Assembly (NCBI GenBank): GCA_001548435.1
Contig: AP017308.1
Span: 4,535,030 to 4,599,029 of the forward strand
DNA from: Leptolyngbya sp. NIES-3755
GTDB lineage: Bacteria > Cyanobacteriota > Cyanobacteriia > Leptolyngbyales > Leptolyngbyaceae
Direction of reading: 5' to 3'
Length of the DNA: 64,000 nucleotides
Below the pieces are notes generated by a model. The model was not told the origin of the DNA. It searched no databases and saw only the letters and a program-made list of their open reading frames with translations. This document shows positions 5,707 through 35,339 of this stretch, piece by piece. Both the position numbers and the translations under genes were made by a program. Numbering within the stretch: the first letter of the stretch is position 1; every line of letters starts with the position of its first letter.

Positions 5707-6906
5707 ATGCCCTCGCTTCTTTCAGATTCTATGCTCCCAGTTCTCATCATTGAAGACGATCGCTTAGTTCGGAAATTGCTCAAAAAATTGCTCCAACCTC
5801 AAGGCTTTGAAGTGGTTGAAGCGACGAGCGGAGAAGAAGGATTAACGCTAGTTGAAAAAGTCCGCCCAGCTTTGATTCTGTGTGATTGGAACTTGCCTGG
5901 AATTGATGGTCTTTCAGTCTGTCGCACGATCAAAACGAACCCAGATTGGTCAGATGTCTATTTCATTTTGCTAACGGCTTACAGTTCACCAGAACATCAT
6001 GTGAAAGCCTTAGATAGTGGAGCCGATGATTTTCTATCTAAACCCATTAAGATTAAGGAATTGGGTGCTAGATTACGAGCGGGTTTGAGAGTCTATCGAG
6101 CCTTTCAGGAACAACGTCGATTAACTCAAGAATTAAAGCTTCAGCAGGAACAATTAGAGTCAGAAATGGCAGAAGCAGCAGAATATGTTCGATCGCTGTT
6201 GCCTGCTCCGATCGACGATCGCATTGTTGCCCGATCGCAGTTTCTTCCCTCTCGACAGTTAGGCGGCGATTGTTTCGATTATCATTGGCTCGATTCTGAT
6301 TTCTTTGCCATGTATCTCTTAGATGTGTCCGGGCATGGATTGGGAGCGGCATTAGTCTCTGTCACGATTCAGAATGTGCTTCGTGCTCAGATTTTACCTG
6401 GAATCAATTTTTATCAGCCTGGGTTAGTTCTAACGGCATTGAATGAAGCGTTTGCATCAGAGGCAGATTGGTTGAGTGAAACGCCAAGGGATCGCTATTT
6501 TACGATTTGGTATGGAGTGTATAACTATTCCAAGCGGTTATTGATGTATTCCAGTGCGGGACATCCGCCAGCGATCGTGGTATCGGGTCAGTCTCCGAAT
6601 CATCAAATTGCTCGACTTCGGACCGCAGGAACACCGATCGGAATGTTTTCTGATTCAAAGTACAAGACTCAGTTCTTTAAGGTTGAGCAAGAGAGTAGCT
6701 TGTATCTATTCAGCGATGGAATCTATGAAGTTCAGCGATCGAATGGAGGAATTTGGAATCTAGATGGATTTATCGAACTCATCGATCGGCATCATCATTC
6801 GGAACAATTGGATAGTTCGGAAACGATTATTCGAGCGGTGAAAGATTTGAAATGCGATCGAGATTTTGAAGATGATTGTTCGTTGTTGCAGATCAAACTG
6901 CGGTAG
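5707..6906 (+). CDS. Response regulator with PP2C (SpoIIE/RsbU-type) phosphatase
   Basis: A 399-residue protein. Residues about 12-130 are a receiver domain with the acidic pair IIEDD, the phospho-acceptor Asp in LCDWNLPG and the Lys in SKPIK. A coiled segment (about 135-165) leads to a PP2C-type phosphatase domain with metal-binding aspartates in LGGDCFD, LDVSGHG, LFSDGIYE and FEDDCSLL. Such proteins dephosphorylate STAS-domain anti-sigma-factor antagonists in partner-switching systems. A STAS gene follows convergently, and an RsbW-like kinase and a STAS-sugar transferase lie beyond the polysaccharide genes, so this is probably the input phosphatase of that module. The upstream sensor kinase is not in the immediate neighbourhood. 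Confidence 0.92.
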   Translation: MPSLLSDSMLPVLIIEDDRLVRKLLKKLLQPQGFEVVEATSGEEGLTLVEKVRPALILCDWNLPGIDGLSVCRTIKTNPDWSDVYFILLTAYSSPEHHVKALDSGADDFLSKPIKIKELGARLRAGLRVYRAFQEQRRLTQELKLQQEQLESEMAEAAEYVRSLLPAPIDDRIVARSQFLPSRQLGGDCFDYHWLDSDFFAMYLLDVSGHGLGAALVSVTIQNVLRAQILPGINFYQPGLVLTALNEAFASEADWLSETPRDRYFTIWYGVYNYSKRLLMYSSAGHPPAIVVSGQSPNHQIARLRTAGTPIGMFSDSKYKTQFFKVEQESSLYLFSDGIYEVQRSNGGIWNLDGFIELIDRHHHSEQLDSSETIIRAVKDLKCDRDFEDDCSLLQIKLR

Positions 6907-7283: not shown

Positions 7284-7516
7284 CGTGATCACCTAAGTAC
7301 TGAATAACTAGAGCTTTGTGACAGCTTCATCAAAAAACAGCCACATCCCATAAAGCCCTGATATTCCTCTAAGTTCTTTATGTAAAATTTCAGATCTTTC
7401 CGCAATTTTTCGCGATCGCTCAAACCCTGGTTTCCGTAATTTCAACCTGTGTCGATCGCCCAAGTAGCCAGTATCGTTTGGGTGTAAATTCAGACCCATT
7501 TTGCCCCCTGAATTTA

Positions 7517-8584
7517 ATGCCCCTATTTAAACCAATGGTAAACCGTGTTTTTCCTACGCTGGCGATTCCATTTATTTTAGGATTGCTCTATCCTTTACCA
7601 TGCTGGAGTTTACCGCTTTCTCCTGGCGATCGCATTAAGCTGACGATTCCTGAAGGTGAACTATTTAATGGTACTTACGAAGTCAATTTAGATGGAACGC
7701 TGAACATTCCCCATCTCCAACCGATTAAAGTTGCTGGACTAGAACCTCCTGAGATTGAACAAACTTTAACAACTGCATTCGTTGACAATAAACTATTTAA
7801 TCCTGCATTTATTCAAACTTCAGTTCAAGTGGTGGAATGGGCACCCATTCAGGTGAATGTTTCGGGTGCAACCTTTCAGCCAGGTCGAATTTTGATCAAT
7901 CAGCGGACTCCGGATGCACGAGCAAGAATCACACAAGCTTCTGGGGACTATTCACCGGAGCGATTTCTAACGGCTGCAATTCGAGCGGCAGGTGGGGTGA
8001 TGCCCAATGCAAATATTCAGAATGTGCAATTGATTCGGAACGGGGACACTCGAACGATCGATTTAAGTGGAGTGCTCGAAGGCGACCCTTTCAATGATAT
8101 TCCGCTCATGGCTGGCGATCGCATTGTGATCCCTGATGCTGGCAAGTTCCAAAATGAGCTAGTTCGACCTTCACAAATTACGATCGATGGAGTCCGAATC
8201 TTTCTCTCGAACTTAACTCAACCTGCGGCGGGAAACGCGGGAAATGCAAGCGCAGGCATTAGTCGAGATGCAACTGCGTTTAAGTATGGTTCGCGATTAT
8301 CTCAAGCCGTGATTGCGGGGAACTGTGCGGGGGGAAGTGCGAGTAATGCAAGACGCAGAGCCGTTTTAGTCAGAACCGATCGCATGAGTGGGAAAACTCA
8401 GGTTGTCGATCGATCGATCGAGGATCTACTGCGGAATTCGACTGAAGATGCAAACAATCCATTGTTACTACCGGACGATGGGATTGCTTGCTATGACTCA
8501 AAATCGACAAATCTTAGAGGGGTTGCAGAAACGTTATCTACTATTTTTTCGCCGTTCTCGTTGCTGTTTAACCTGTTCCGATAA
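7517..8584 (+). CDS. Polysaccharide export outer-membrane protein (Wza/OPX family)
   Basis: A 355-residue protein with an N-terminal signal segment (VFPTLAIPFILGLLYPLPCW). The Poly_export domain follows (LSPGDRIKLTIPE..GTYEVNLDGTLNIPHL) and then SLBB-like repeats with AGDRIVIPDAG. OPX proteins form or line the outer-membrane exit channel for exopolysaccharide. It is the first gene of a run of plus-strand genes; its TAA shares one base with the ATG of the chain-length gene. The ATG at 7517 is chosen because it precedes the signal segment; an in-frame ATG at 7478 and one at 7535 are alternatives. No clear lipobox is seen. Confidence 0.88.
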   Translation: MPLFKPMVNRVFPTLAIPFILGLLYPLPCWSLPLSPGDRIKLTIPEGELFNGTYEVNLDGTLNIPHLQPIKVAGLEPPEIEQTLTTAFVDNKLFNPAFIQTSVQVVEWAPIQVNVSGATFQPGRILINQRTPDARARITQASGDYSPERFLTAAIRAAGGVMPNANIQNVQLIRNGDTRTIDLSGVLEGDPFNDIPLMAGDRIVIPDAGKFQNELVRPSQITIDGVRIFLSNLTQPAAGNAGNASAGISRDATAFKYGSRLSQAVIAGNCAGGSASNARRRAVLVRTDRMSGKTQVVDRSIEDLLRNSTEDANNPLLLPDDGIACYDSKSTNLRGVAETLSTIFSPFSLLFNLFR

Positions 8585-9999
8585 TGTCTTTAGATCCACC
8601 ACAACCGACTGGAAAAGGGCAATGGCGAGTTTATCTCCTGATGTGGCTATTGATCAACACCACAATTTGGAGTGCAGCAATTTTGTATCTGAAAAAAGCA
8701 AAGCCAACCTATATCAGTGAATGGGCATTGATCTTGCCAGGAACGGGTCCTGGAGTCAGCGTGAACCTACCGGAGATTGGTCAAGCGAGTTCTTCTAGCA
8801 GTTCAGCATTTGGTGGAGCCTCTTCTGATCCAAGAGCAAACTATCAATTTATTGCGACCAGCGACGCTGTGTTAGGACGGGCAGCAACCCAGATGAATTT
8901 GTCGATCGAAGCGTTCGGCAAACCTCGTGTCAAACTGCTCGATAATACGACGATTATGACGTTTCAGGTTACGGGATCAACGCCAGAGCAAGCCCAACAA
9001 AAATCGAAACAGATGTATCAAGCAATGGTACAGCGATTAAGCGAACTACGAGTTGAAGAGTTGGGGCGACGCGATGAAGGGGTACAAGCAACGATGAAAG
9101 CGGCACAAACCAAATTACATCAGGCGCAGAAACAGCTTTCGGAATACAAAGTTTCGTCTGGATTGAGCTTTCAGGGACAAGTCGATAATCTATCTGTGAA
9201 TGTGGAACAGTTGCGAAGACAGCGATCGGAGATTTTAGCCAAACGCCAACAAACGGGAACTCGACTCGCACAGTTAGCCACAAATTTAGGCATTACACCA
9301 GAGCAAGCGGCGACCGCATTCGTTCTACAAGCCGATCAACAATTTCAGCAGAATCTAAAAGACTATAGTGAAGCGAGTGCGAGTTTAGTCGTGCTTTTAT
9401 CGAAATGGGGTGAAAATCATCCGAATGTGGTGAAAGAACAAGCCAGACAGCAAGCCGCACAAATTGCGATCGCCCAACGAAGCACAGAACTTTTGAAGCA
9501 AGAGGTTGATCCACAGCTATTAGAGTTTTTGCAGTTAGGAATCAATGATCAAGGTGCAGGTCGATCGAGTCTTTTTCGCGATTTGATTACAACTCAGGCA
9601 GAATTTGAAGGCTTTAATGCAGAAGTGCAAAGCTTAGAGCAACAGATAAAACAATTAGATAGTCGTCTGAGTGGTTTAGCACAACGACAATCGACCTTGG
9701 AAAATCTGAAGCGCGATGTGCAAACTGCTGAGGCTGTATTTGCCTCCACACTGGCTCGAATTGATTTAAGCAAATCTGATATTTTTACCGCGTATCCGCT
9801 GACTCAATTGGTCGCAGAACCGTCATTACCAAGTTCGCCCAGTACCCCGAAGAAATCCTTAGTCTACCTCGGTGCAGGACTGGGATCAGTGCTATCTGGT
9901 GCAGCAGTAACATTGTTAGCAATGCGAAAAAGGTTATTGAAGCTCTATCAAGACCGAAAGCAATCTACTGCAACAAGTTCGGAGCAGACTACAGTATGA
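8584..9999 (+). CDS. Chain-length determinant protein (Wzz/Wzc-like, no kinase domain)
   Basis: A 471-residue polysaccharide co-polymerase. One membrane helix is near residues 14-36 and a second near 430-448, after the proline-rich PSSPSTPKK block typical of this family. The long middle region is predicted coiled coil in the periplasm. The C-terminus ends soon after the second helix and has no Walker motifs or Tyr cluster, so it lacks the BY-kinase part found in Wzc. It therefore probably sets chain length or bridges to the OPX channel without phosphorylation of its own. It starts at the stop of the OPX gene and overlaps the next gene by 4 bases. Confidence 0.87.
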   Translation: MSLDPPQPTGKGQWRVYLLMWLLINTTIWSAAILYLKKAKPTYISEWALILPGTGPGVSVNLPEIGQASSSSSSAFGGASSDPRANYQFIATSDAVLGRAATQMNLSIEAFGKPRVKLLDNTTIMTFQVTGSTPEQAQQKSKQMYQAMVQRLSELRVEELGRRDEGVQATMKAAQTKLHQAQKQLSEYKVSSGLSFQGQVDNLSVNVEQLRRQRSEILAKRQQTGTRLAQLATNLGITPEQAATAFVLQADQQFQQNLKDYSEASASLVVLLSKWGENHPNVVKEQARQQAAQIAIAQRSTELLKQEVDPQLLEFLQLGINDQGAGRSSLFRDLITTQAEFEGFNAEVQSLEQQIKQLDSRLSGLAQRQSTLENLKRDVQTAEAVFASTLARIDLSKSDIFTAYPLTQLVAEPSLPSSPSTPKKSLVYLGAGLGSVLSGAAVTLLAMRKRLLKLYQDRKQSTATSSEQTTV

Positions 10000-11294
10000 A
10001 GCCAGAGAACTTTGCGGAAAAAGCAATTTGGTACACGCTGCTGTTGACGTATGGTTACTTCATTATTGGAGGCTTGTATGTTGTTGGATGCGTGATTGGC
10101 TGGATTATTTTCGGGTATTGGCTCAAGGTTTGGTACTTTCAGACCGACGAAACTCCTGAAGACGATCGCATTCGTATCCCGATCGCAATTTGGATCTGGA
10201 TTATCGGGATGTTCGTTCAGCAAGTTGCGCTGATCATGGGACATCTCGACTTTAATCTAGGACTTGGCACGATGATTAAATCCTCGATCGGTTGGGCAAA
10301 AGGCTGGGCACTTCTCGCATTATTCCCGCTGCTTGGAACACTCAAAATTCGAGCAGAGCTACTGTATCGAATCGCTTGCATTGTTGGACTTCAAACACTG
10401 TTGGTATTTCCAATCTTTTATCTGTTCTATTTGCTCAAACTACCCGCTCAGCCTTTCGTTTCGCCGCTAAGAGTCGTAGGAGGTCCAGGTCCAGAATTTT
10501 TCGCCCCAACCTTTTACGAGATTGATCCCGAAAATATGCAGCCACGCTGGAGGCTGTTCACACCCTGGGCACCTGCACTGGGATTTATGGGTAATATCTA
10601 TTTCTTTCTGGCAATTCGCGAGAAAGATTTGAAATGGCGATTCATTGGAATGATTGGTGCAGTGTTTATGTGTACCGTATCAGTCTCGCGACTTGCACAG
10701 ATTTCGATCCCGATCGTAGCGGGTATGACTCTATTGCTCTCTAGTCTTGGAAAGCCGATCGCATTAATTACGCTAAGCTTTGCCAGTGGAATTCTCGGTA
10801 TTGTTGCACCGACCGTGATTGATGCTTATGTTCAGTTTAATGAGAACTTCAAAGCACAGCGGGCGGGATCATCGAGAGTTCGAGCGGCTTTGGGAAGAAT
10901 CGCGATCGAGCGTTGGCAAAATGATGCTCCAATCTGGGGGCATGGCATTGTTGAAACGGGACCGCACATGGTCGAATTTATGCCGATCGGTTCACATCAT
11001 AGTTGGTATGGATTGCTCTTTGTCAAAGGAATTGTGGGATTTTTCGGGTTAGCGATTCCGATGCTGTGGAGTTTCTTCGATCTAGTGTTGAAATCACAGA
11101 CGAGTAAGACGGCTCAAACTGGGCTAAATATGTTAGTGATTTTGTTTCTCTATACTTTTGGCGAGAACTTAGAGATTTTGGTGTATCTCACCTATCCTGC
11201 ATTCCTGATGCTAGGGATTGCTCATTGCGAACCGATTCAACTTAAGAAGTTAGTACAGCCCTATGAAACCAAGGATTGTTCACCTGTTAGATGA
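9996..11294 (+). CDS. O-antigen polymerase/ligase-like membrane protein (Wzy candidate)
   Basis: A 432-residue protein with about 10-11 membrane helices and one large periplasmic loop. The loop segment RIAIERWQNDAPIWGHGIVE followed by GSHHSWYGLLFVKG resembles the conserved region of Wzy polymerases and WaaL ligases. In this operon the most likely role is polymerising undecaprenyl-linked repeat units at the periplasmic face. It overlaps the chain-length gene by 4 bases (ATGA) and the downstream glycosyltransferase by 32 bases. Assignment rests on topology, the loop motif and context. Confidence 0.8.
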   Translation: MKPENFAEKAIWYTLLLTYGYFIIGGLYVVGCVIGWIIFGYWLKVWYFQTDETPEDDRIRIPIAIWIWIIGMFVQQVALIMGHLDFNLGLGTMIKSSIGWAKGWALLALFPLLGTLKIRAELLYRIACIVGLQTLLVFPIFYLFYLLKLPAQPFVSPLRVVGGPGPEFFAPTFYEIDPENMQPRWRLFTPWAPALGFMGNIYFFLAIREKDLKWRFIGMIGAVFMCTVSVSRLAQISIPIVAGMTLLLSSLGKPIALITLSFASGILGIVAPTVIDAYVQFNENFKAQRAGSSRVRAALGRIAIERWQNDAPIWGHGIVETGPHMVEFMPIGSHHSWYGLLFVKGIVGFFGLAIPMLWSFFDLVLKSQTSKTAQTGLNMLVILFLYTFGENLEILVYLTYPAFLMLGIAHCEPIQLKKLVQPYETKDCSPVR

Positions 11295-12252
11295 TCAGAA
11301 TGTGGGTGGTGTTCGACGTTGGATTCAAAACATTTCTGATTCGCGGCTGAATTCCCAATTTGAGTTTGGATTAGTTCGATCGACAGAGCTATTGCCATTT
11401 TTACGATCGCATAAAGTTGACCTAGTCATCTGCCACAATCCAAGTTCCTGGAAGCGATCGCTAAATCTGATCCGAATCAGACATCGGGTGAAGCTGATGA
11501 TCGTTGAACATCATTACTGTGAGGGATTCGAGCGGCTGAATGTGCCATCGGTAGAACGCTTTCGAGCCATGTTGAAATGGAATTATGGAATTGTCGATCG
11601 AGTTGTTTCAGTTTCTCAAGGACAATCGAATTGGCTTCAACCGCTAACTCGTTCTACTAAACTTGTTACAATTCCACTTTCGACCCAGGTTGATTCATTC
11701 CTCGAAGTTCCAAAGAAGCAGATTCAAAAGCCTTTTATTCTCGGTGCTTATGGACGATTCTCGCAGCAGAAAGGATTTGATACACTGCTCAAAGCAATGC
11801 AGCGAGTTCCAAGCCCTGATGTTCAGCTTTATCTGGGTGGATACGGTGAGGATGAAAGCTTACTAAAAACATTGGCTGGTAATCTACCAAACGTGAAATT
11901 TTGGGAAACAGTGCAAGATGTTCAGGGATTTTTATCGGCTTGTGATGCGATCGTGATTCCATCCCGGTGGGAGCCAGGAGGAACGGTTTGCATTGAAGCG
12001 AAAGCTGCGGGTAGACCTGTGATTGTTTCGGATGTAGATGGTTTAACTGAGCAAGTTCAGAACTGTGGAATGATTGTTGCACCAGACGATCCGATTCAGT
12101 TGGCGAGTGCGATCGATACTTTAATCAAAATGACTCCCAAACAGGTCGAAGCTTGGGGTGAAACGGCTCGAAACTCAGTTCGGGACACTTGGGAGCAATA
12201 CATCATTGAATGGGAAGCTTTTCTTTGGAAACTTTTAGGTGAAACACGATGA
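11263..12252 (+). CDS. Glycosyltransferase family 4
   Basis: A 329-residue GT-B fold enzyme. The C-terminal half has GAYGRFSQQKGFDTLLKAM and the donor-binding block PSRWEPGGTVCIEAKAAGRP, typical of GT4 retaining glycosyltransferases that use nucleotide sugars. It would add a sugar to the growing lipid-linked repeat unit on the cytoplasmic side. It overlaps the polymerase gene by 32 bases and the flippase gene by 4, so the genes are tightly coupled. The donor and linkage are unknown. Confidence 0.88.
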   Translation: MKPRIVHLLDDQNVGGVRRWIQNISDSRLNSQFEFGLVRSTELLPFLRSHKVDLVICHNPSSWKRSLNLIRIRHRVKLMIVEHHYCEGFERLNVPSVERFRAMLKWNYGIVDRVVSVSQGQSNWLQPLTRSTKLVTIPLSTQVDSFLEVPKKQIQKPFILGAYGRFSQQKGFDTLLKAMQRVPSPDVQLYLGGYGEDESLLKTLAGNLPNVKFWETVQDVQGFLSACDAIVIPSRWEPGGTVCIEAKAAGRPVIVSDVDGLTEQVQNCGMIVAPDDPIQLASAIDTLIKMTPKQVEAWGETARNSVRDTWEQYIIEWEAFLWKLLGETR

Positions 12253-13499
12253 CAGTCTTTGATCAATTTCGCCAAAAGTTTTCCAGTCGATTCATTCAAA
12301 ATTTAGGTTGGTTGAGTCTTTCAGAGATTATTATCCGAATTGTTCGGCTTGCAACAACAGTCATCCTAGCTCGATTTTTGTCCGAATATGACTATGGACT
12401 AGCCGCGATCGTACTCACCGTAAATGAGTTCACACAAATGCTCACTCGTTGCGGCATCAGCGCAAAACTGATTCAAGTTGAAGAGGAACGTTTAGAAACT
12501 CTAGCAAATTCAGCCTATTGGTTGAGTTGGCTCATCTATCTTGGATTGTTTGTGATTCAGTGTATTTCTGCATTTGCGATCGCCATTTTCTACCGAGACA
12601 ATCAGCTAATTATCCCAATTTGTGCGACTGCAATTATCTATCTCATTGTTCCGATCGCACAAGTTCAAGCTACATTAATCCAGCGAGAAAACCGCCTGAA
12701 GATTATTGCCGTTACAAACGCGCTCCAAATCTCGATCGGGAATGTTCTGACTGCATTGTTCGCCTTTCTCGGCTTTGGAATGTGGGCGATTGTTTTACCC
12801 AGAGTATTAGTCGCTCCGCTGTGGGTAATCATTAACTATCACTATCATGATTGGCGACCAAAGCGCTGGACAACCGATCATTGGGGTGAACTCTTCAGAT
12901 TTGGGCGGCATGTACTAGGCGTTGAACTATTAAAAACTCTGAGAAACAATTTAGATTATCTCATCGTTGGGCGAATGGTTGGAGTGAGAGAACTCGGACT
13001 CTACTATTTCGCTTTCAATGCAGGACTGGGAATCAGTCTCAGTTTTATCACTGCAATCAATACTGCCTTGTATCCACATCTGTGTGCAGCAAGGGCAAAC
13101 TGGCAACAATTTCAGCAGAGATACTTCCATAGCCTGAAAATCACAGCATTCATCATTGTTCCGATCGTCCTTTTACAGTCGAGTCTTGCTCCGATCTATG
13201 TTCCGATCGTTTTTAGCCAAAAATGGATCGAAGCAATTCCAATTCTGATGCTCATTTGTCTTTCTGCAATTCCTCGACCGTTTGCGGAGGCGGCTTCTGC
13301 GGTTTGGTTAGCGATCGACAAACCGAAAATCGATCTAATCGGAAGTGTTGTGTTTACGATCGTTCTCGCGATCGCGCTTTTAATCGGAACACAGTGGCAA
13401 TTAACCGGAGTTGCGATCGCGGTACTTGCGACTCACGTTGTTTTTCAGCCCTTATTTACACTCTTGACAACGCGATTTGTGATGCAGCGCACAACATAA
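12249..13499 (+). CDS. Oligosaccharide flippase (Wzx-like)
   Basis: A 416-residue integral membrane protein with about 12 helices, of the polysaccharide biosynthesis / MATE-like flippase type. The N-terminus has SEIIIRIVRLATTVILARFL, the usual first helices, and the middle has RNNLDYLIVGRMVG, a block common in Wzx proteins. It would move the completed lipid-linked repeat unit to the periplasm. It overlaps the GT4 gene by 4 bases. The IS5-family element begins 23 bases after its stop, so the gene is intact. Confidence 0.87.
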   Translation: MTVFDQFRQKFSSRFIQNLGWLSLSEIIIRIVRLATTVILARFLSEYDYGLAAIVLTVNEFTQMLTRCGISAKLIQVEEERLETLANSAYWLSWLIYLGLFVIQCISAFAIAIFYRDNQLIIPICATAIIYLIVPIAQVQATLIQRENRLKIIAVTNALQISIGNVLTALFAFLGFGMWAIVLPRVLVAPLWVIINYHYHDWRPKRWTTDHWGELFRFGRHVLGVELLKTLRNNLDYLIVGRMVGVRELGLYYFAFNAGLGISLSFITAINTALYPHLCAARANWQQFQQRYFHSLKITAFIIVPIVLLQSSLAPIYVPIVFSQKWIEAIPILMLICLSAIPRPFAEAASAVWLAIDKPKIDLIGSVVFTIVLAIALLIGTQWQLTGVAIAVLATHVVFQPLFTLLTTRFVMQRTT

Positions 13500-13522: not shown

Positions 13523-14369
13523 GAGGGTGTTATGAACTTTGAAAGCGAAGTTCAACAAACTGTTTGACCATCAACATCGCAAACGCGACCAGGTGAAACC
13601 CTGCTAAAGTTTCAGCTAGACGCTCATAATCTCGCACTAACCGCCGAAACCGGGACATCCAGCCAAAACTACGCTCGACCACCCACCGACGAGGAAGCAG
13701 CACGAAGCCCTTCTTGGCTTCCGGCAGTTTCACGACTTCCAATCGAACTCCTTGCTGTTCTGCCGCTTGTGCCGCTGGTTCTCCGGTATAAGCTTGATCA
13801 ACAAACGCCACTTCTATGTTGTCTCCGGTGACTTGTTGCACTTGCTCAACCAGAACTTGGACTTGGTGACGGTCTTGCTCGTTCGCAGGCGTGACGTGCA
13901 ACGCTAACAGTTGCCCTAATGTGTCCACCGCAATATGGACTTTGCTGCCTTTCTTGCGTTTCCCGCCGTCGTACCCTGCTCGATGTCCGCTCTCAAGCGT
14001 AGACTGTAAGGTGCGACTATCTAGAATCACGGCACTCGGTTGCTCGTTGCGTCCAGACAGAAGCCGTAACAATTCGCGCAGGTCATGTACCATCGTTTCA
14101 AACACCCCTGCTTTCATCCACCGCTGCGTTTGTTGGTACACCGCTGCCCACGGCGGCAAGTCATGCGGCATTAGTCGCCACGCTCCTCCGCTTCTCGCCA
14201 CGTATCGTAAACCGTTAAACACTTCTCTCAGACTGTGTTCGCGCTGCGGTGCATCTTCGCTCATCAATGTTAAGTATGGTGCGACAAATACCCATTCTTC
14301 GTCGCTGACATCTGTGGGATAAGGCTTTCTACTCATGCCTCCAGTTTAACAAAAGTGCATAACACCCTC
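13523..14369. mobile_element. IS5-family insertion sequence, complete
   Basis: An 847-bp element bounded by imperfect 18-base terminal inverted repeats: GAGGGTGTTATGAACTTT at the left and, read on the other strand, GAGGGTGTTATGCACTTT at the right (one mismatch). A TA dinucleotide flanks each end, consistent with the TA target duplication of the IS427-like group. It holds one intact transposase on the minus strand whose stop codon lies in the left repeat. It sits between the flippase and the GT2 gene of the polysaccharide cluster. Confidence 0.93.
13530..14336 (-). CDS. IS5 family transposase
   Basis: A 268-residue intact transposase. The N-terminal DUF4096-like region has YPTDVSDEEWVFVAPYL and GGAWRLMPHDLPPWAAVYQQ. 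The DDE catalytic residues are visible in VILDSRT (first Asp), EVAFVDQAYTG (second Asp) and RRWVVERSFGWMSRFRR (Glu). No frameshift is seen, unlike many IS5/IS427 members that use two frames. It is transcribed against the polysaccharide operon. The element is likely still mobile, since both the repeats and the enzyme are complete. Confidence 0.95.
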   Translation of the reverse strand: MSRKPYPTDVSDEEWVFVAPYLTLMSEDAPQREHSLREVFNGLRYVARSGGAWRLMPHDLPPWAAVYQQTQRWMKAGVFETMVHDLRELLRLLSGRNEQPSAVILDSRTLQSTLESGHRAGYDGGKRKKGSKVHIAVDTLGQLLALHVTPANEQDRHQVQVLVEQVQQVTGDNIEVAFVDQAYTGEPAAQAAEQQGVRLEVVKLPEAKKGFVLLPRRWVVERSFGWMSRFRRLVRDYERLAETLAGFHLVAFAMLMVKQFVELRFQSS

Positions 14370-14546
14370 TAGCAGATTCTTAAAGTTTCTGTAGAGTTCA
14401 ACTAGAAAACGGGAATTTTATTAAAGATAGCTTTGTTCCCTGTTACTAAGTTATTTCTCAATCTAAATCAGAGTGTGTCTCCCGTCCCCGTAATTCTGCT
14501 TTGTACATCAGTTACGGATAGTTGTACTCTGTTCGCAATCTTTGGT

Positions 14547-15581
14547 ATGAAAAAGGTTTCTGTCATTCTCCCGGTCTACAACGTCGAGCAGTACATCGCC
14601 AAAACAATCCGCTCTGTGCTGGCTCAAACTTATCCAACATTTGAATTGATTATTGTTGATGATGAATCGCCCGATCGTAGTATCGAAATCTGTAAACAAT
14701 TTAATGATCCCCGCATCCGAATTGTTCATCAAAAGAATCGCGGTCTAGCAGGTGCAAGAAACACTGGAATTCGTCAGGCTCAAGGCGATTACATTGCACT
14801 GCTCGATAGTGATGATCTGTGGTTGCCGACTAAGTTAGAGCAACACGTTAAACATTTGGAACAATCGCCTGAAGTTGGAATTAGCTTTAGTCGATCGGCG
14901 TTTATTGATGAAGCAGATCAGCCTTTAGGTGTCTATCAAATGCCAAAGCTGAAAGACATTACTGGATCACATTTGCTCTGTCGAAATCCGATTGGAAATG
15001 GCTCTGCGCCTGTGATTCGGCGGGAAGTTTTGGACGCGATCGCATTTTCCGATACTCTCTATGGCACTGAAGAAACGTTCTACTTCGATGATCACTTTAG
15101 GCAGTCCGAAGATATCGAGTGCTGGATTCGGGTTGTCCTTCAGACTGATTGGAAAATCGAAGGGATTCCTGATGCACTCACGCTCTATCGAGTTAACACC
15201 GAAAGCCTTTCTGCCAATGTGATGAAACAACTAGCATCGTGGGAACAAGTCGTCGAAAAAACTCGGACTTATGCTCCAGAGGTCGTCGCTCGATGGGAAA
15301 ACACAGCACGTGCCTATCAACTTCGGTATCTATCTCGTCGCTGTGTCCGAATGCAGGATGGAGCCATGGCAGTGAAATTATTTCATCGATCGCTGTTCAC
15401 GAACTGGAAAATTATTACTGAAGAACCGCGCAGAACCTTGATCACTGGAGCCGCTGCCTATTTACTGTGGGCATTACCAAAACCGCTGTATCACTGGAGC
15501 GAACACCTTGCGCTTAAAGTGACTGGAGCAAGTCAAAAGCGTCGGATTCAGAGCGAACAACTATCTGGAGCATCCGCATGA
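14547..15581 (+). CDS. Glycosyltransferase family 2
   Basis: A 344-residue enzyme with a GT-A domain at the N-terminus: VSVILPVYNVEQYI, then ELIIVDDESPD, and the metal-binding DXD in ALLDSDDLWLP. The ATG at 14547 starts exactly at the conserved fold; a frame open from 14433 adds 38 unlikely residues that partly derive from sequence next to the IS element. It overlaps the PssD-like gene by 4 bases. It likely transfers one sugar in repeat-unit assembly. After the IS insertion this gene is the first of the downstream half of the locus. Confidence 0.9.
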   Translation: MKKVSVILPVYNVEQYIAKTIRSVLAQTYPTFELIIVDDESPDRSIEICKQFNDPRIRIVHQKNRGLAGARNTGIRQAQGDYIALLDSDDLWLPTKLEQHVKHLEQSPEVGISFSRSAFIDEADQPLGVYQMPKLKDITGSHLLCRNPIGNGSAPVIRREVLDAIAFSDTLYGTEETFYFDDHFRQSEDIECWIRVVLQTDWKIEGIPDALTLYRVNTESLSANVMKQLASWEQVVEKTRTYAPEVVARWENTARAYQLRYLSRRCVRMQDGAMAVKLFHRSLFTNWKIITEEPRRTLITGAAAYLLWALPKPLYHWSEHLALKVTGASQKRRIQSEQLSGASA

Positions 15582-16030
15582 AGGTATTGCTCGTGTGTTC
15601 ATCGGGAGGACATTTCAAAGCACTGTATCAGTTACGTCCTTATTGGGGAGTGCACGATCGACAATGGGTGACTTTTCAGACAAGTGTGACAGAAACTCAG
15701 CTTGAAGGCGAAAACGTAGACTGGGCATGGAGTCCAACGAATCGGAACATTCCAAATCTGCTCCGAAATCTGGGACTAGCTTGGAAGATTCTACGACGCG
15801 ATCGACCGGATTTAGTCATCTCCACAGGTGCAGGAGTCGCAGTTCCCTTTCTTCTGCTCGCAAAGCTATTTGGAAGTCAAACGATCTTTATCGAATCCAT
15901 CACCCGTGTGAATGACTTGAGCTTGTCTGCAAAGTTAAGTTTACCGTTTCTCAATGTTCTATATGTTCATTGGGCAGAATTACAGCATCGTTATCCCAAA
16001 GCAACATTGATTAAAGCATCATCGGATTAG
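15578..16030 (+). CDS. PssD/Alg14-like glycosyltransferase subunit
   Basis: A 150-residue protein starting MKVLLVCSSGGHFKALYQL, with PDLVISTGAGVAVPFLLLAK and TIFIESITRVNDLSLSAK, the features of Alg14/PssD. This is the membrane-associated half of a two-part GT1-type transferase; the catalytic half (Alg13/PssE) is encoded 3 bases downstream. Together they would transfer one sugar to the lipid-linked acceptor. It overlaps the GT2 stop by 4 bases. Confidence 0.9.
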   Translation: MKVLLVCSSGGHFKALYQLRPYWGVHDRQWVTFQTSVTETQLEGENVDWAWSPTNRNIPNLLRNLGLAWKILRRDRPDLVISTGAGVAVPFLLLAKLFGSQTIFIESITRVNDLSLSAKLSLPFLNVLYVHWAELQHRYPKATLIKASSD

Positions 16031-16033
16031 TTC

Positions 16034-16522
16034 ATGATTTTTGTTACTGTCGGAACTGAGCAATACGCCTTCAACCGCTTAATGTGTTGGATTTCAATCC
16101 TGATGCAGCATGGATTAATCCAAGAACAAGTGATTGTTCAATATGGCACTTCTAAGCGATTGCCAACGAATGTGATTGCTCATAAAACCGTTCCTCTCGA
16201 TCGCTTTTCTCAACTGGTTCAACAAGCCCGATTAGTCATTAGTCACTGTGGGGAAGGATCATTGTTTATGCTGGAAGAAATTGGAACGCCTTATATTTTA
16301 GTGCCGCGCAGTGTTCGATTTCAGGAACATGTGGATGATCATCAAGTAGAACTGGCGATCGCGCTTTCCAGTATTGGAATTGAGATCGCATGGTCGCCTG
16401 GAGATTTAGTTCGGTTCGTCACGGCTGCCGAATCGAGAGAAAGTAAATTGTTCTCGATCGCGTCATCGCAGGCACTCTGTGATCAGTTAAGCCTTGATTC
16501 TGAACGATTCTTTGCTGCTTAA
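16034..16522 (+). CDS. PssE/Alg13-like glycosyltransferase subunit
   Basis: A 162-residue protein with the GT28 C-terminal fold: MIFVTVGTEQYAFNRL at the start, then RLVISHCGEGSLFMLEEIGTP and VPRSVRFQEHVDDHQVELA, the nucleotide-sugar binding part. It pairs with the PssD-like subunit just upstream. In rhizobial and streptococcal polysaccharide clusters such pairs add the second sugar of the repeat unit. The following gene, the initiating sugar transferase, fits that order. Confidence 0.9.
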   Translation: MIFVTVGTEQYAFNRLMCWISILMQHGLIQEQVIVQYGTSKRLPTNVIAHKTVPLDRFSQLVQQARLVISHCGEGSLFMLEEIGTPYILVPRSVRFQEHVDDHQVELAIALSSIGIEIAWSPGDLVRFVTAAESRESKLFSIASSQALCDQLSLDSERFFAA

Positions 16523-16537: not shown

Positions 16538-17518
16538 ATGATTCAACAGTCTTCGATCGAATTTTCCGTCATCCACACTGAAGAACTCTATCTATTGCAA
16601 CTTCCAGCGTTGTTAACGGTGACTGAAGCAGTCGCATTCCGCACCAAGTGTCGAGAGCTAATCGAAACGAAACCGACTCCATCTAAGATTATTCTCGATT
16701 TCGCTCAGACCACCTTTATCGATAGTAGTGCGATCGGTGCTTTAGTGATGTGTCTGAAAGCGGCTCGATCGTGTCAGATTGAACTGGTGTTGTGGAGCGT
16801 GAAGCCTGAAATTGTCGCGATTTTAGAGTTAGCGGGTCTCGATCGACAATTCACGATCGAGGCTGAGACACTTCCTCTAGAACCCAGTTCCAAATCTCAG
16901 ATCGAAGCGACTCATCCATCGATTCAATCCAGAACTAAAAGAGCGATCGACATTGCGGGTGCAATTGTTGGTTTAGGAATTACAGCAGTTGTCTTTGTTC
17001 CAATTGCGATCGCGATCAAGCTCGATAGTCCAGGTGCAATTCTTTTTTCTCAAACTCGCTGTGGTCACTTGGGGCGGCGCTTTCAAGTTTGGAAGTTTCG
17101 ATCAATGGTCAGTGATGCTGAACAGTTAAAAGCACAGGTAGAAAATCAGAACGAAGGTGCATTTTTCAAGAACACCCATGATCCGAGAATTACGAGAGTC
17201 GGGCGATTTTTGCGGAAAACGAGCTTAGATGAACTGCCGCAGTTTTGGAATGTACTCTGCGGTGAAATGAGCTTAGTCGGAACTCGTCCACCTCTGCCTG
17301 AAGAAGTCGATCGATATGAGATTGCCAACTGGCAGCGGCTCAATGTTAAACCTGGAATTACTGGAGAATGGCAGGTACATGGTCGATCGAAGATTCGCAA
17401 CTTTGAGCAAGTGATTCAGTTAGATTTGCGGTATCAAGAACGCTGGAATCTGAAGTATGATCTGGAGCTAATTCTAAAAACCATTGTGGTTCTGTTCAGA
17501 AAAGATAGTGCGTTTTAA
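16538..17518 (+). CDS. STAS domain fused to initiating sugar transferase (PHPT)
   Basis: A 326-residue fusion in one uninterrupted frame, with GTGAGG upstream of the ATG. Residues about 1-112 are a STAS domain with the phosphorylation-site block TTFIDSSAIGALV. After a short linker, residues about 131-326 form a polyprenyl-phosphate hexose-1-phosphate transferase: one membrane re-entrant helix (IAGAIVGLGITAVVFVPIAI), then VWKFRSM, the Asp-Glu catalytic pair in TSLDELPQFWNVL and LVGTRPPLPEE. The usual long N-terminal membrane part of WbaP-like enzymes is absent and replaced by STAS. The enzyme would start repeat-unit synthesis on undecaprenyl phosphate. The STAS domain suggests direct control by the RsbW-like kinase encoded next to it; that is inference. 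Confidence 0.92.
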   Translation: MIQQSSIEFSVIHTEELYLLQLPALLTVTEAVAFRTKCRELIETKPTPSKIILDFAQTTFIDSSAIGALVMCLKAARSCQIELVLWSVKPEIVAILELAGLDRQFTIEAETLPLEPSSKSQIEATHPSIQSRTKRAIDIAGAIVGLGITAVVFVPIAIAIKLDSPGAILFSQTRCGHLGRRFQVWKFRSMVSDAEQLKAQVENQNEGAFFKNTHDPRITRVGRFLRKTSLDELPQFWNVLCGEMSLVGTRPPLPEEVDRYEIANWQRLNVKPGITGEWQVHGRSKIRNFEQVIQLDLRYQERWNLKYDLELILKTIVVLFRKDSAF

Positions 17519-17540: not shown

Positions 17541-17999
17541 ATGAACGATCTTGCAGCTACCGAGGGTGTGATTCACTTCGATCGATTAATTGTTCAAACT
17601 GAGTTAACGGCAATTTCGCAGATTCTAGCCTGGTTTGGAACATTTCAACAGTCTCCAGTCACGCAAGCGATTTGGCTTCAAGGACAGATTGGATTAGTCG
17701 AAGGTTTTACGAATGCAGTCCGACACGCGCACGAAGAGTTACCCAGACAAACTCCGATTAAGCTTGAGGCAGGTATCTACCCAAATCATTTAGAAATTCG
17801 AGTCTGGGATCGAGGATCGCCCTTTGATTTAGACGCATTAATCGATCGAGTCGAGCAAGCATATCCAAATCCGATCGAACATGAAGCCCACTGGGGAGCC
17901 GCACTGTTTAAGAAGCTTCGAGATCAACACAGTTGGCAGATTGATTACCGCTGCTCTCGTGAAGGTCAAAATTGTCTGAAGTTAACTAAGTTTTATTAG
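17541..17999 (+). CDS. RsbW-like ATP-binding protein (anti-sigma factor/kinase type)
   Basis: A 152-residue GHKL-type protein. The N box is LVEGFTNAVRHAHEE (Glu, Asn and His of RsbW-like kinases), the G1 box is VWDRGSPFDLD, and the G2 region is HWGAALFKKLRDQ, which is less glycine-rich than usual. An AGGAG site ends 10 bases before the ATG at 17541, which decides the start over the longer frame from 17484. The gene lies 22 bases after the STAS-sugar transferase, so they are likely co-expressed. It would phosphorylate STAS domains. Its 3' end overlaps the convergent Uma2 gene by 4 bases. Confidence 0.88.
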   Translation: MNDLAATEGVIHFDRLIVQTELTAISQILAWFGTFQQSPVTQAIWLQGQIGLVEGFTNAVRHAHEELPRQTPIKLEAGIYPNHLEIRVWDRGSPFDLDALIDRVEQAYPNPIEHEAHWGAALFKKLRDQHSWQIDYRCSREGQNCLKLTKFY

Positions 18000-34382: not shown

Positions 34383-35339
34383 ATGAAAACTGCTCAAACT
34401 CCCACAGATTCCGTTCGGGCTTACCTACGAGAAATCGGTCGTGTGCCGCTATTGACGCACGAACAAGAAGTGGTCTACGGCAAACAAGTTCAGCGACTAG
34501 CGATCGTCAATTCGGTGAAAGCCGCACTGATCGAAAAGCTCGGAAAAGATCCAGACGATGTCACCTGGGCGCAAGCGGCGGATCTTTCTGAAACCGAATT
34601 GCGACAAGTTTTGGCAGAAGGTGAACTCGCAAAACGTCGAATGGTCGAAGCCAATCTTCGTCTCGTCGTTTCTGTTGCCAAGAAATACACCAAGCGGAAT
34701 GTCGAACTGATGGATCTGATTCAAGAAGGCACGATCGGGATGCAGCGCGGTGTCGAAAAGTTCGATCCCACAAAAGGCTACCGATTCTCGACGTATGCGT
34801 ATTGGTGGATTCGGCAAGCGATTACAAGAGCGATCGCAGAAAAAGGTCGAACGATTCGTCTGCCAATTCACATTACCGAGAAGTTAAACAAAATTAAGAA
34901 AGCACAGCGCAGTCTATCTCAACAGTTGGGACGCGCTGCAACGCTGTCTGAATTAGCGACCGAATTAGATTTGCCTGTGGCTCAAGTGCGGGACTATCTC
35001 GAACGCGCTCGTGTGCCGCTGTCGTTAGATTTGCGTGTGGGCGATAACCAAGATACCGAATTAGGCGAACTGCTCGAAGATCCGGGAGTATCGCCAGAGG
35101 AATTCACGACTCAAACCTCGCTGAAATTAGATTTGGATGCGTTGATGGCGGATTTGACTCAACAACAGCGAGAAGTGCTGATTCTGAGATTCGGTTTGGA
35201 TGATGGAAAGGCTTTGACTCTGGCGAAAATTGGCGATCGCTTAAATATCAGTCGCGAACGAGTGAGACAAATCGAACGCGAAGCCTTGACGAAATTGCGG
35301 AAGCGTAAAGGCGATATGGGCGAATATCTCGCAAGCTAG
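34383..35339 (+). CDS. Group 2 RNA polymerase sigma factor (SigB/SigD type)
   Basis: A 318-residue sigma-70 protein. Region 1.2 is [21 protein letters not shown]. Region 2 shows [39 protein letters not shown] and [17 protein letters not shown] (2.4). Region 4 ends with [20 protein letters not shown] and [11 protein letters not shown]. The length and absence of the long acidic region 1.1 place it in the non-essential group 2, used in stress, dark or nutrient responses in cyanobacteria. Which of SigB-E it corresponds to cannot be fixed without alignment. It may be a target of partner-switching control, but no link is visible here. Confidence 0.95.

Follow-up and report, generated by a model that had tools for sequence, protein, structure and literature searches.

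A STAS domain fused to an initiating phosphoglycosyl transferase, a candidate sigma-free output of partner switching in cyanobacteria

Can the enzyme that opens polysaccharide synthesis itself be the output of a partner switch, with no sigma factor in between? The question is raised by a locus of Leptolyngbya sp. NIES-3755, within a 64,000-nucleotide (nt) stretch of contig AP017308.1 (positions 4,535,030 to 4,599,029; hereafter the window), where a 326-amino acid (aa) open reading frame (ORF) at 16538-17518 (+) holds a STAS domain and a monotopic phosphoglycosyl transferase (PGT) in one frame. The best of four readings considered here, held with moderate confidence, is that partner switching acts directly on the PGT, as its output, with no sigma factor involved. 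It draws on features evident in the sequences, namely the fusion itself, the kept catalytic and phospho-acceptor residues, the linkage to a kinase gene, and a four-part set of partner-switch genes around the enzyme. The fusion and its key residues are arranged as follows.

16538..17518, + strand: STAS-PGT fusion (STAS aa 11-109; linker T125, H126, S131; PGT aa 134-320)
16718..16738, + strand: codons of IDSSAIG (aa 61-67; D62, S63, S64) with the putative phospho-acceptor Ser63, aligned with the DSS of SpoIIAA
17228..17233, + strand: codons of D231-E232, the PGT catalytic pair

Both domains are matched over the Pfam cut-offs, STAS (PF01740) at aa 11-109 with E 2.7e-14 and Bac_transf (PF02397) at aa 134-320 with E 1.3e-64, and IDSSAIG and D231-E232 are both present, which bears out the claim of the first-pass annotation that a STAS domain with DSSAIG is joined to an Asp-Glu sugar transferase. 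Monotopic PGTs are marked by an Asp-Glu pair and by a basic motif before a membrane helix, and the fusion has both. On sequence grounds, its STAS part fits the partner-switching type, a STAS domain with a phospho-acceptor Ser, and aligns with SpoIIAA across the DSS motif (E 2.5e-5), in which the first Ser is presumably the phosphorylated one. A structure model of the fusion (mean pLDDT 79.4, pTM 0.59) has its best solved relatives in PglC (E 1.1e-13) and WbaP for the PGT part (folds 8t53, 8g1n) and in TM1442, SpoIIAA (1th8_B), and RsbV (6m36) for the STAS part. The PGT probably starts a slime polysaccharide.

A search with the STAS part over 386 genomes of the phylum gave matches in 149, and at least 97 fusion-like places besides the window's own were picked by length and score; transporter-length frames of ~720 aa, short STAS-only frames, and one 231-aa frame (G053) were left out of the pick. 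Both domains lie in one ORF in 96 of the 97 fetched places, among them a short 234-aa frame (L240), and in separate overlapping frames in the other (L243). A count of such fusions, which the first-pass annotation had proposed, comes to at least 87 of the 386 sampled genomes (96 fusions in 86 genomes, plus the window's own). The set analyzed below comprises 142 fusions, the 96 of the phylum sample, 45 from 80 further loci, and that of the window, and may contain duplicates, as the two collections may share species (L091 and L166, for example, carry identical fusions). A chance frame or misassembly is ruled out by the 141 further ORFs of related genomes with the same two-domain order. The fusion is a real and widespread cyanobacterial family, and probably a regulatory one.

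Conservation within this family covers catalytic, linker, and phosphosite residues. D231 and E232 are kept in 141 of the 142 fusions, and K134, R135, and D138 in 142/142. The linker residues T125, H126, and S131 (window positions 16910-16930) are invariant in 41/41 aligned fusions; an HPS stretch similar to this one is also seen in the unfused PGTs L006 and L122. Across aa 8-110 of the STAS part, Ser63 is the sole invariant position, present in 142/142 fusions, and the adjacent Ser64 is found in 139 fusions and is Cys in the other three.

Close behind the fusion in the window lies the gene of a likely partner.

17541..17999, + strand: RsbW-like serine kinase (HATPase_c_2), 152 aa; E54, N58, D90, G92, and G119 kept

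The last base of the fusion's stop codon is 17518 and the kinase probably starts with the ATG at 17541, upstream of which stands AGGAG (by eye), leaving the 22-nt gap at which an RsbW-like gene had already been placed; the HATPase_c_2 match (PF13581) has E 1.7e-14. A profile of the kinase finds RsbW (6m36_A) with E 1.6e-12 and SpoIIAB with E 0.0016, and the protein has the RsbW/SpoIIAB residue set of a catalytic Glu and Asn with an ATP-site Asp and Gly. Across the family, 50 of 142 fusions are followed within 1 kb by an RsbW-like gene on the same strand, and these adjacent kinases keep E54, N58, G92, and G119 in 50/50 aligned sequences and D90 in 49/50. L086 has two adjacent kinases, giving 51 kinase-fusion pairs, of which 35 are spaced at ≤35 nt; gene overlap, scored in 22 pairs including that of the window (where the likely ATG leaves 22 nt), is overstated because the script takes the first possible start codon. 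At L200, a natural read-through (stop as Gly) puts fusion and kinase in one chain, the model of which (mean pLDDT 85.2, pTM 0.59) also matches SpoIIAB and RsbW. The same loci also hold 41 PGT frames, some of them partial, that lack STAS; an RsbW gene lies within 5 kb of only one of these, that of L243, which resembles a fusion that has broken apart. The other eight PGTs of the window genome lie >60 kb from every HATPase_c_2 place over cut-off. The kinase label needs 13 changes on the PGT tree, and the linkage counts are not independent because the rows are related. A tie between Ser63 and kinase adjacency is ruled out: the residue is kept in 50/50 kinase-linked and 92/92 other fusions, so that a missing adjacent kinase did not free the site.

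Two further genes in the window, overlooked in the first-pass annotation, complete the module.

5707..6906, + strand: REC-SpoIIE (PP2C) phosphatase, 399 aa
6948..7292, - strand: stand-alone STAS protein, 114 aa, with MDSSGLG

Kinase, phosphatase, and two STAS domains make up a full partner-switch set that brackets one Wzx/Wzy-type cluster. All four parts occur within ~10 kb of the fusion in 10 of the 142 loci, window included, a number in which L080, L084, and L110 are near-copies and L165 has its kinase upstream on the other strand. A scan of five fusion-linked phosphatases shows REC-SpoIIE proteins in three loci (the window, L197, and L165) and PAS matches in the other two (L200 and L084), with an additional weak GAF match in L084. 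The domains vary among the five, and the input therefore seems to differ between loci.

The bracketed cluster contains eight polysaccharide genes, several of them assigned from matches below curated cut-offs.

7478..8584, + strand: Wza-like polysaccharide export protein (Poly_export, SLBB)
8584..9999, + strand: chain-length/copolymerase-like protein (GNVR and TIGR03007 matches below cut-offs)
9996..11294, + strand: Wzy-like polymerase (Wzy_C match below Pfam cut-off)
11263..12252, + strand: glycosyltransferase, GT4-like (no NCBIfam match over cut-off)
12249..13499, + strand: Wzx-like flippase
14433..15581, + strand: glycosyltransferase family 2 (GT2)
15578..16030, + strand: PssD/Alg14-like glycosyltransferase subunit
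16034..16522, + strand: PssE-like glycosyltransferase subunit

The PssD/PssE-like pair directly precedes the fusion, at the end of the cluster. An insertion sequence (IS)-type transposase-like ORF (by eye) lies inside the cluster at 13530-14336 (-), between the flippase and GT2 genes. There is no Sigma70_r2 match in the cluster, the nearest being at 34641-34850, ~17 kb from the fusion, and no sigma factor is encoded within the partner-switch set of the window.

In the mechanism proposed, a small monotopic PGT would have acquired, at its N-terminus, a SpoIIAA/RsbV-type STAS domain. We infer that the neighboring RsbW-like kinase would bind this domain and phosphorylate Ser63, that the REC-SpoIIE phosphatase, fed by a two-component signal, would take the phosphate off again, and that the stand-alone STAS protein would compete for the kinase. 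The phosphorylation or binding state of the fused STAS would then decide whether the PGT loads the first sugar-phosphate onto the lipid carrier, such that the committed step itself would be the control point for polysaccharide output and no sigma factor would be needed. Of the two forms, the one without phosphate is the likelier to be active, a sign guessed by analogy with Vibrio fischeri SypA and Nostoc punctiforme HmpV, STAS outputs described as active when unphosphorylated in one review (PMC8256260). The earlier proposal that partner switching acts on the first step of polysaccharide synthesis gains comparative support, from the invariant Ser, a kinase adjacent in several lineages, kept kinase motifs, and the REC-phosphatase with a second STAS protein; the kinase is not always adjacent, and the part given to the membrane region is not supported, as discussed below.

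Several observations weigh against this mechanism. The first-pass annotation had asked whether the fusions always adjoin an HATPase_c_2 gene, and they do not: 92 of 142 are without a same-strand kinase within 1 kb, counting L074, which has <1 kb of sequence downstream. In the phylum sample, the kinase is adjacent in 37 of 96 fusions, 32/46 outside one family (f7) and 5/50 within it. In the tree, f7 sequences cluster with loci that bear the names Nostoc, Anabaena, and Calothrix; 45 of the 50 sampled have no adjacent kinase, and a kinase there would therefore have to act in trans. Two scores also fall below curated cut-offs, that of the fusion STAS against NCBIfam TIGR00377 (anti-sigma antagonist) narrowly, at 51.3 vs 53.45 bits, and that of the window kinase against the NCBIfam RsbW equivalog widely, at 33.3 vs 145 bits. 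STAS matches in three other genomes from the window's family (G060, G185, G289) were all weak, so the fusion gene looks patchy. Polysaccharide clusters, finally, are not borne out as the general setting of the fusion. In a phmmer search (E 1e-6; window left out of the 49 kinase-linked loci), at least two of the eight window-type polysaccharide genes were found in 11/49 kinase-linked and 8/92 other loci, and none of the eight in 34/49 and 78/92, respectively. The neat cluster of the window is therefore the exception rather than the rule.

Candidates for a kinase acting in trans might be found among partner-switch genes elsewhere in the same genomes. A kinase-profile search covered 19 genomes, from which 20 regions were fetched, one chosen for its PGT rather than for a kinase. 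Ten regions (L280-L289) hold a STAS/SpoIIE/RsbW trio without a fusion, the SpoIIE match of L283 being split over two frames, and at least 9 of the 15 f7 genomes searched have such a STAS/REC-SpoIIE-type/RsbW trio elsewhere, with one or two regions examined per genome. These trios are possible sources of trans kinases for the f7 fusions. A cellulose-synthase-like GT2 relative of ~660-690 aa accompanies 7 of the 10 trios (L280, L282-L285, L288, L289) and a PIG-L relative 5 of the 10 (Pfam was run on the relatives at L282 and L284 only), which suggests that partner switches may serve polysaccharide enzymes more widely. At L279:9631-11401, in the window's family, RsbW-like and SpoIIE-type genes lie beside a 1996-aa hybrid sensor kinase, and a STAS match is absent from that 20-kb locus.

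Three other accounts of the locus have to be set against direct output. It is conceivable, though unlikely, that information flows in the reverse direction: depending on how polysaccharide synthesis stands, the membrane-bound STAS-PGT would hold or release the kinase, which would act on the stand-alone STAS protein or on some other partner. One candidate target is a second STAS protein, with DSSG, which the window and all nine other four-part loci encode. No separate target gene was recognized near the window kinase, however, and because STAS is covalently linked to the enzyme, the enzyme is more simply read as the output.

More doubtful still is a purely structural role of STAS, as scaffold or dimerization domain of the PGT, with the kinase serving the separate STAS protein alone. 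The extra domain of WbaP, which forms the dimer and binds uridine nucleotides (PMC10942596), offers a parallel, and the 92 of 142 fusions without an adjacent kinase would be explained. Against a scaffold, Ser63 is the single invariant STAS residue, and a STAS fold need not keep this Ser, as the 766-aa STAS protein of the window genome, probably a transporter, reads DASA at the phosphosite. The kinase gene close behind the fusion in many lineages argues in the same direction. The least probable account is that the kinase is an anti-sigma factor, as RsbW and SpoIIAB are, for a sigma factor encoded elsewhere, with STAS-PGT as an unusual anti-anti-sigma factor coupling polysaccharide synthesis to transcription: there are 19 Sigma70_r2 matches in the genome, including the one in the window, the Hmp paper allows for a sigma target (PMC6495340), and a passage of one review has SypA initiate transcription (PMC8256260), which also counts against direct output, but the cluster itself is without a Sigma70_r2 match and SypA is placed below transcription in the account of PMC10120452.

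In a tree built from PGT columns only, one branch with support 98 (FastTree) parts 140 distinct fused from 39 unfused rows, the latter mostly frames of ~215-260 aa; the tree is a single unrooted run with long-end-branch warnings, and WbaP-type large PGTs are not included in it. Within the window genome, the fused PGT shares 62-66% identity with the small PGTs L004, L006, and L007 (226-298 aa) and 50-53% with the large PGTs L001-L003 (480-538 aa). The four-helix bundle and PF13727 domain of WbaP-type enzymes are not found in the fusion, in which Pfam gives only STAS and Bac_transf. Monotopic PGTs have a membrane-associated helix, and a long helix at 132-163 in the fusion model fits this helix of the PGT itself. 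The initial idea that STAS replaces a WbaP-like membrane region therefore does not appear to hold, small PGTs being nearest both by tree branch and by identity, and the fusion has the look of a small PGT to which a STAS domain was added. The simplest history is that STAS was joined once to a small PGT and that the kinase was later lost or relocated in the Nostocales clade, a direction that we infer because the tree is not rooted. At L122:9878-10222 and L128:9965-10357, a STAS frame immediately precedes an unfused small PGT, so that these loci resemble the fusion in split form. Another fusion, at L101:7852-8994 of Rhabdochromatium marinum, presumably a purple sulfur bacterium, has no kinase match in its locus and may reflect horizontal transfer.

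The fusion as such is already known in one case. According to a 2021 review (PMC8256260), Anabaena sp. PCC 7120 all4160 encodes a glycosyltransferase that carries STAS at its N-terminus, and the gene is listed among the genes outside the heterocyst envelope polysaccharide (HEP) island required for HEP (PMC4390870). With its N-terminal STAS and C-terminal transferase, it is likened to the window fusion by architecture, not by sequence. The passages on all4160 in PMC8256260 and PMC4390870 link no kinase to it, whereas the window fusion has one adjacent; the Nostocales fusions that likely correspond to all4160 are without an adjacent kinase. The linked kinase, the family-wide invariant Ser, and the four-part sets were not found in a literature search.

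Bacillus SpoIIAA/SpoIIAB and RsbV/RsbW have the same STAS and kinase folds and motifs as the window pair, but their output is a sigma factor, and none is seen in the window cluster. SypA, a STAS protein of Vibrio fischeri, bears phospho-Ser56 under control of the kinase/phosphatase SypE and acts on polysaccharide biofilm below transcription, in the account of PMC10120452. As described, it is a separate 105-aa protein, whereas the STAS of the window is part of the PGT. SypR of the syp locus is presumably itself a PGT. Cyanobacteria also offer a partner switch whose output is a STAS protein: HmpU/V/W of Nostoc punctiforme, in which HmpV fills this role and the effector is undefined (PMC6495340, PMC8256260). 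These descriptions tie the system to hormogonium development and, unlike the window system, to no transferase fusion. Salmonella enterica WbaP and the small PGT PglC share the catalytic PGT domain with the window fusion; WbaP adds a four-helix membrane bundle and a PF13727 domain with an assigned nucleotide-sensing role (PMC10942596), the fusion has STAS, and small PGTs such as PglC are the catalytic core alone. Staphylococcus aureus CapM is a small PGT reported to be activated by a regulatory kinase (Rausch 2019 via PMC10942596), and the mention of it there includes no STAS domain or RsbW-type partner, unlike the window fusion.

The SypA and HmpV outputs have their target left open in the passages that treat them (PMC8256260, PMC10120452, PMC6495340). 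A STAS domain joined covalently to an initiating transferase, often with the kinase adjacent, names a concrete target class for outputs of this type that is testable in standard strains. Tentatively, and with less assurance than for the window locus itself, cyanobacteria may possess a sigma-free partner switch with a carbohydrate enzyme as output, realized in one branch as STAS fused to an initiating PGT and in another as a STAS/REC-SpoIIE/RsbW trio beside a cellulose-synthase-like enzyme, in which case the fusion would point to initiating or polymerizing glycosyltransferases as the targets of SypA and HmpV. If direct output is correct, cyanobacteria would gain a fast and reversible start and stop of sheath or envelope polysaccharide without new transcription. 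Many other cyanobacteria share the design, and sugar-coat production may thus be switched directly, rather than through gene expression.
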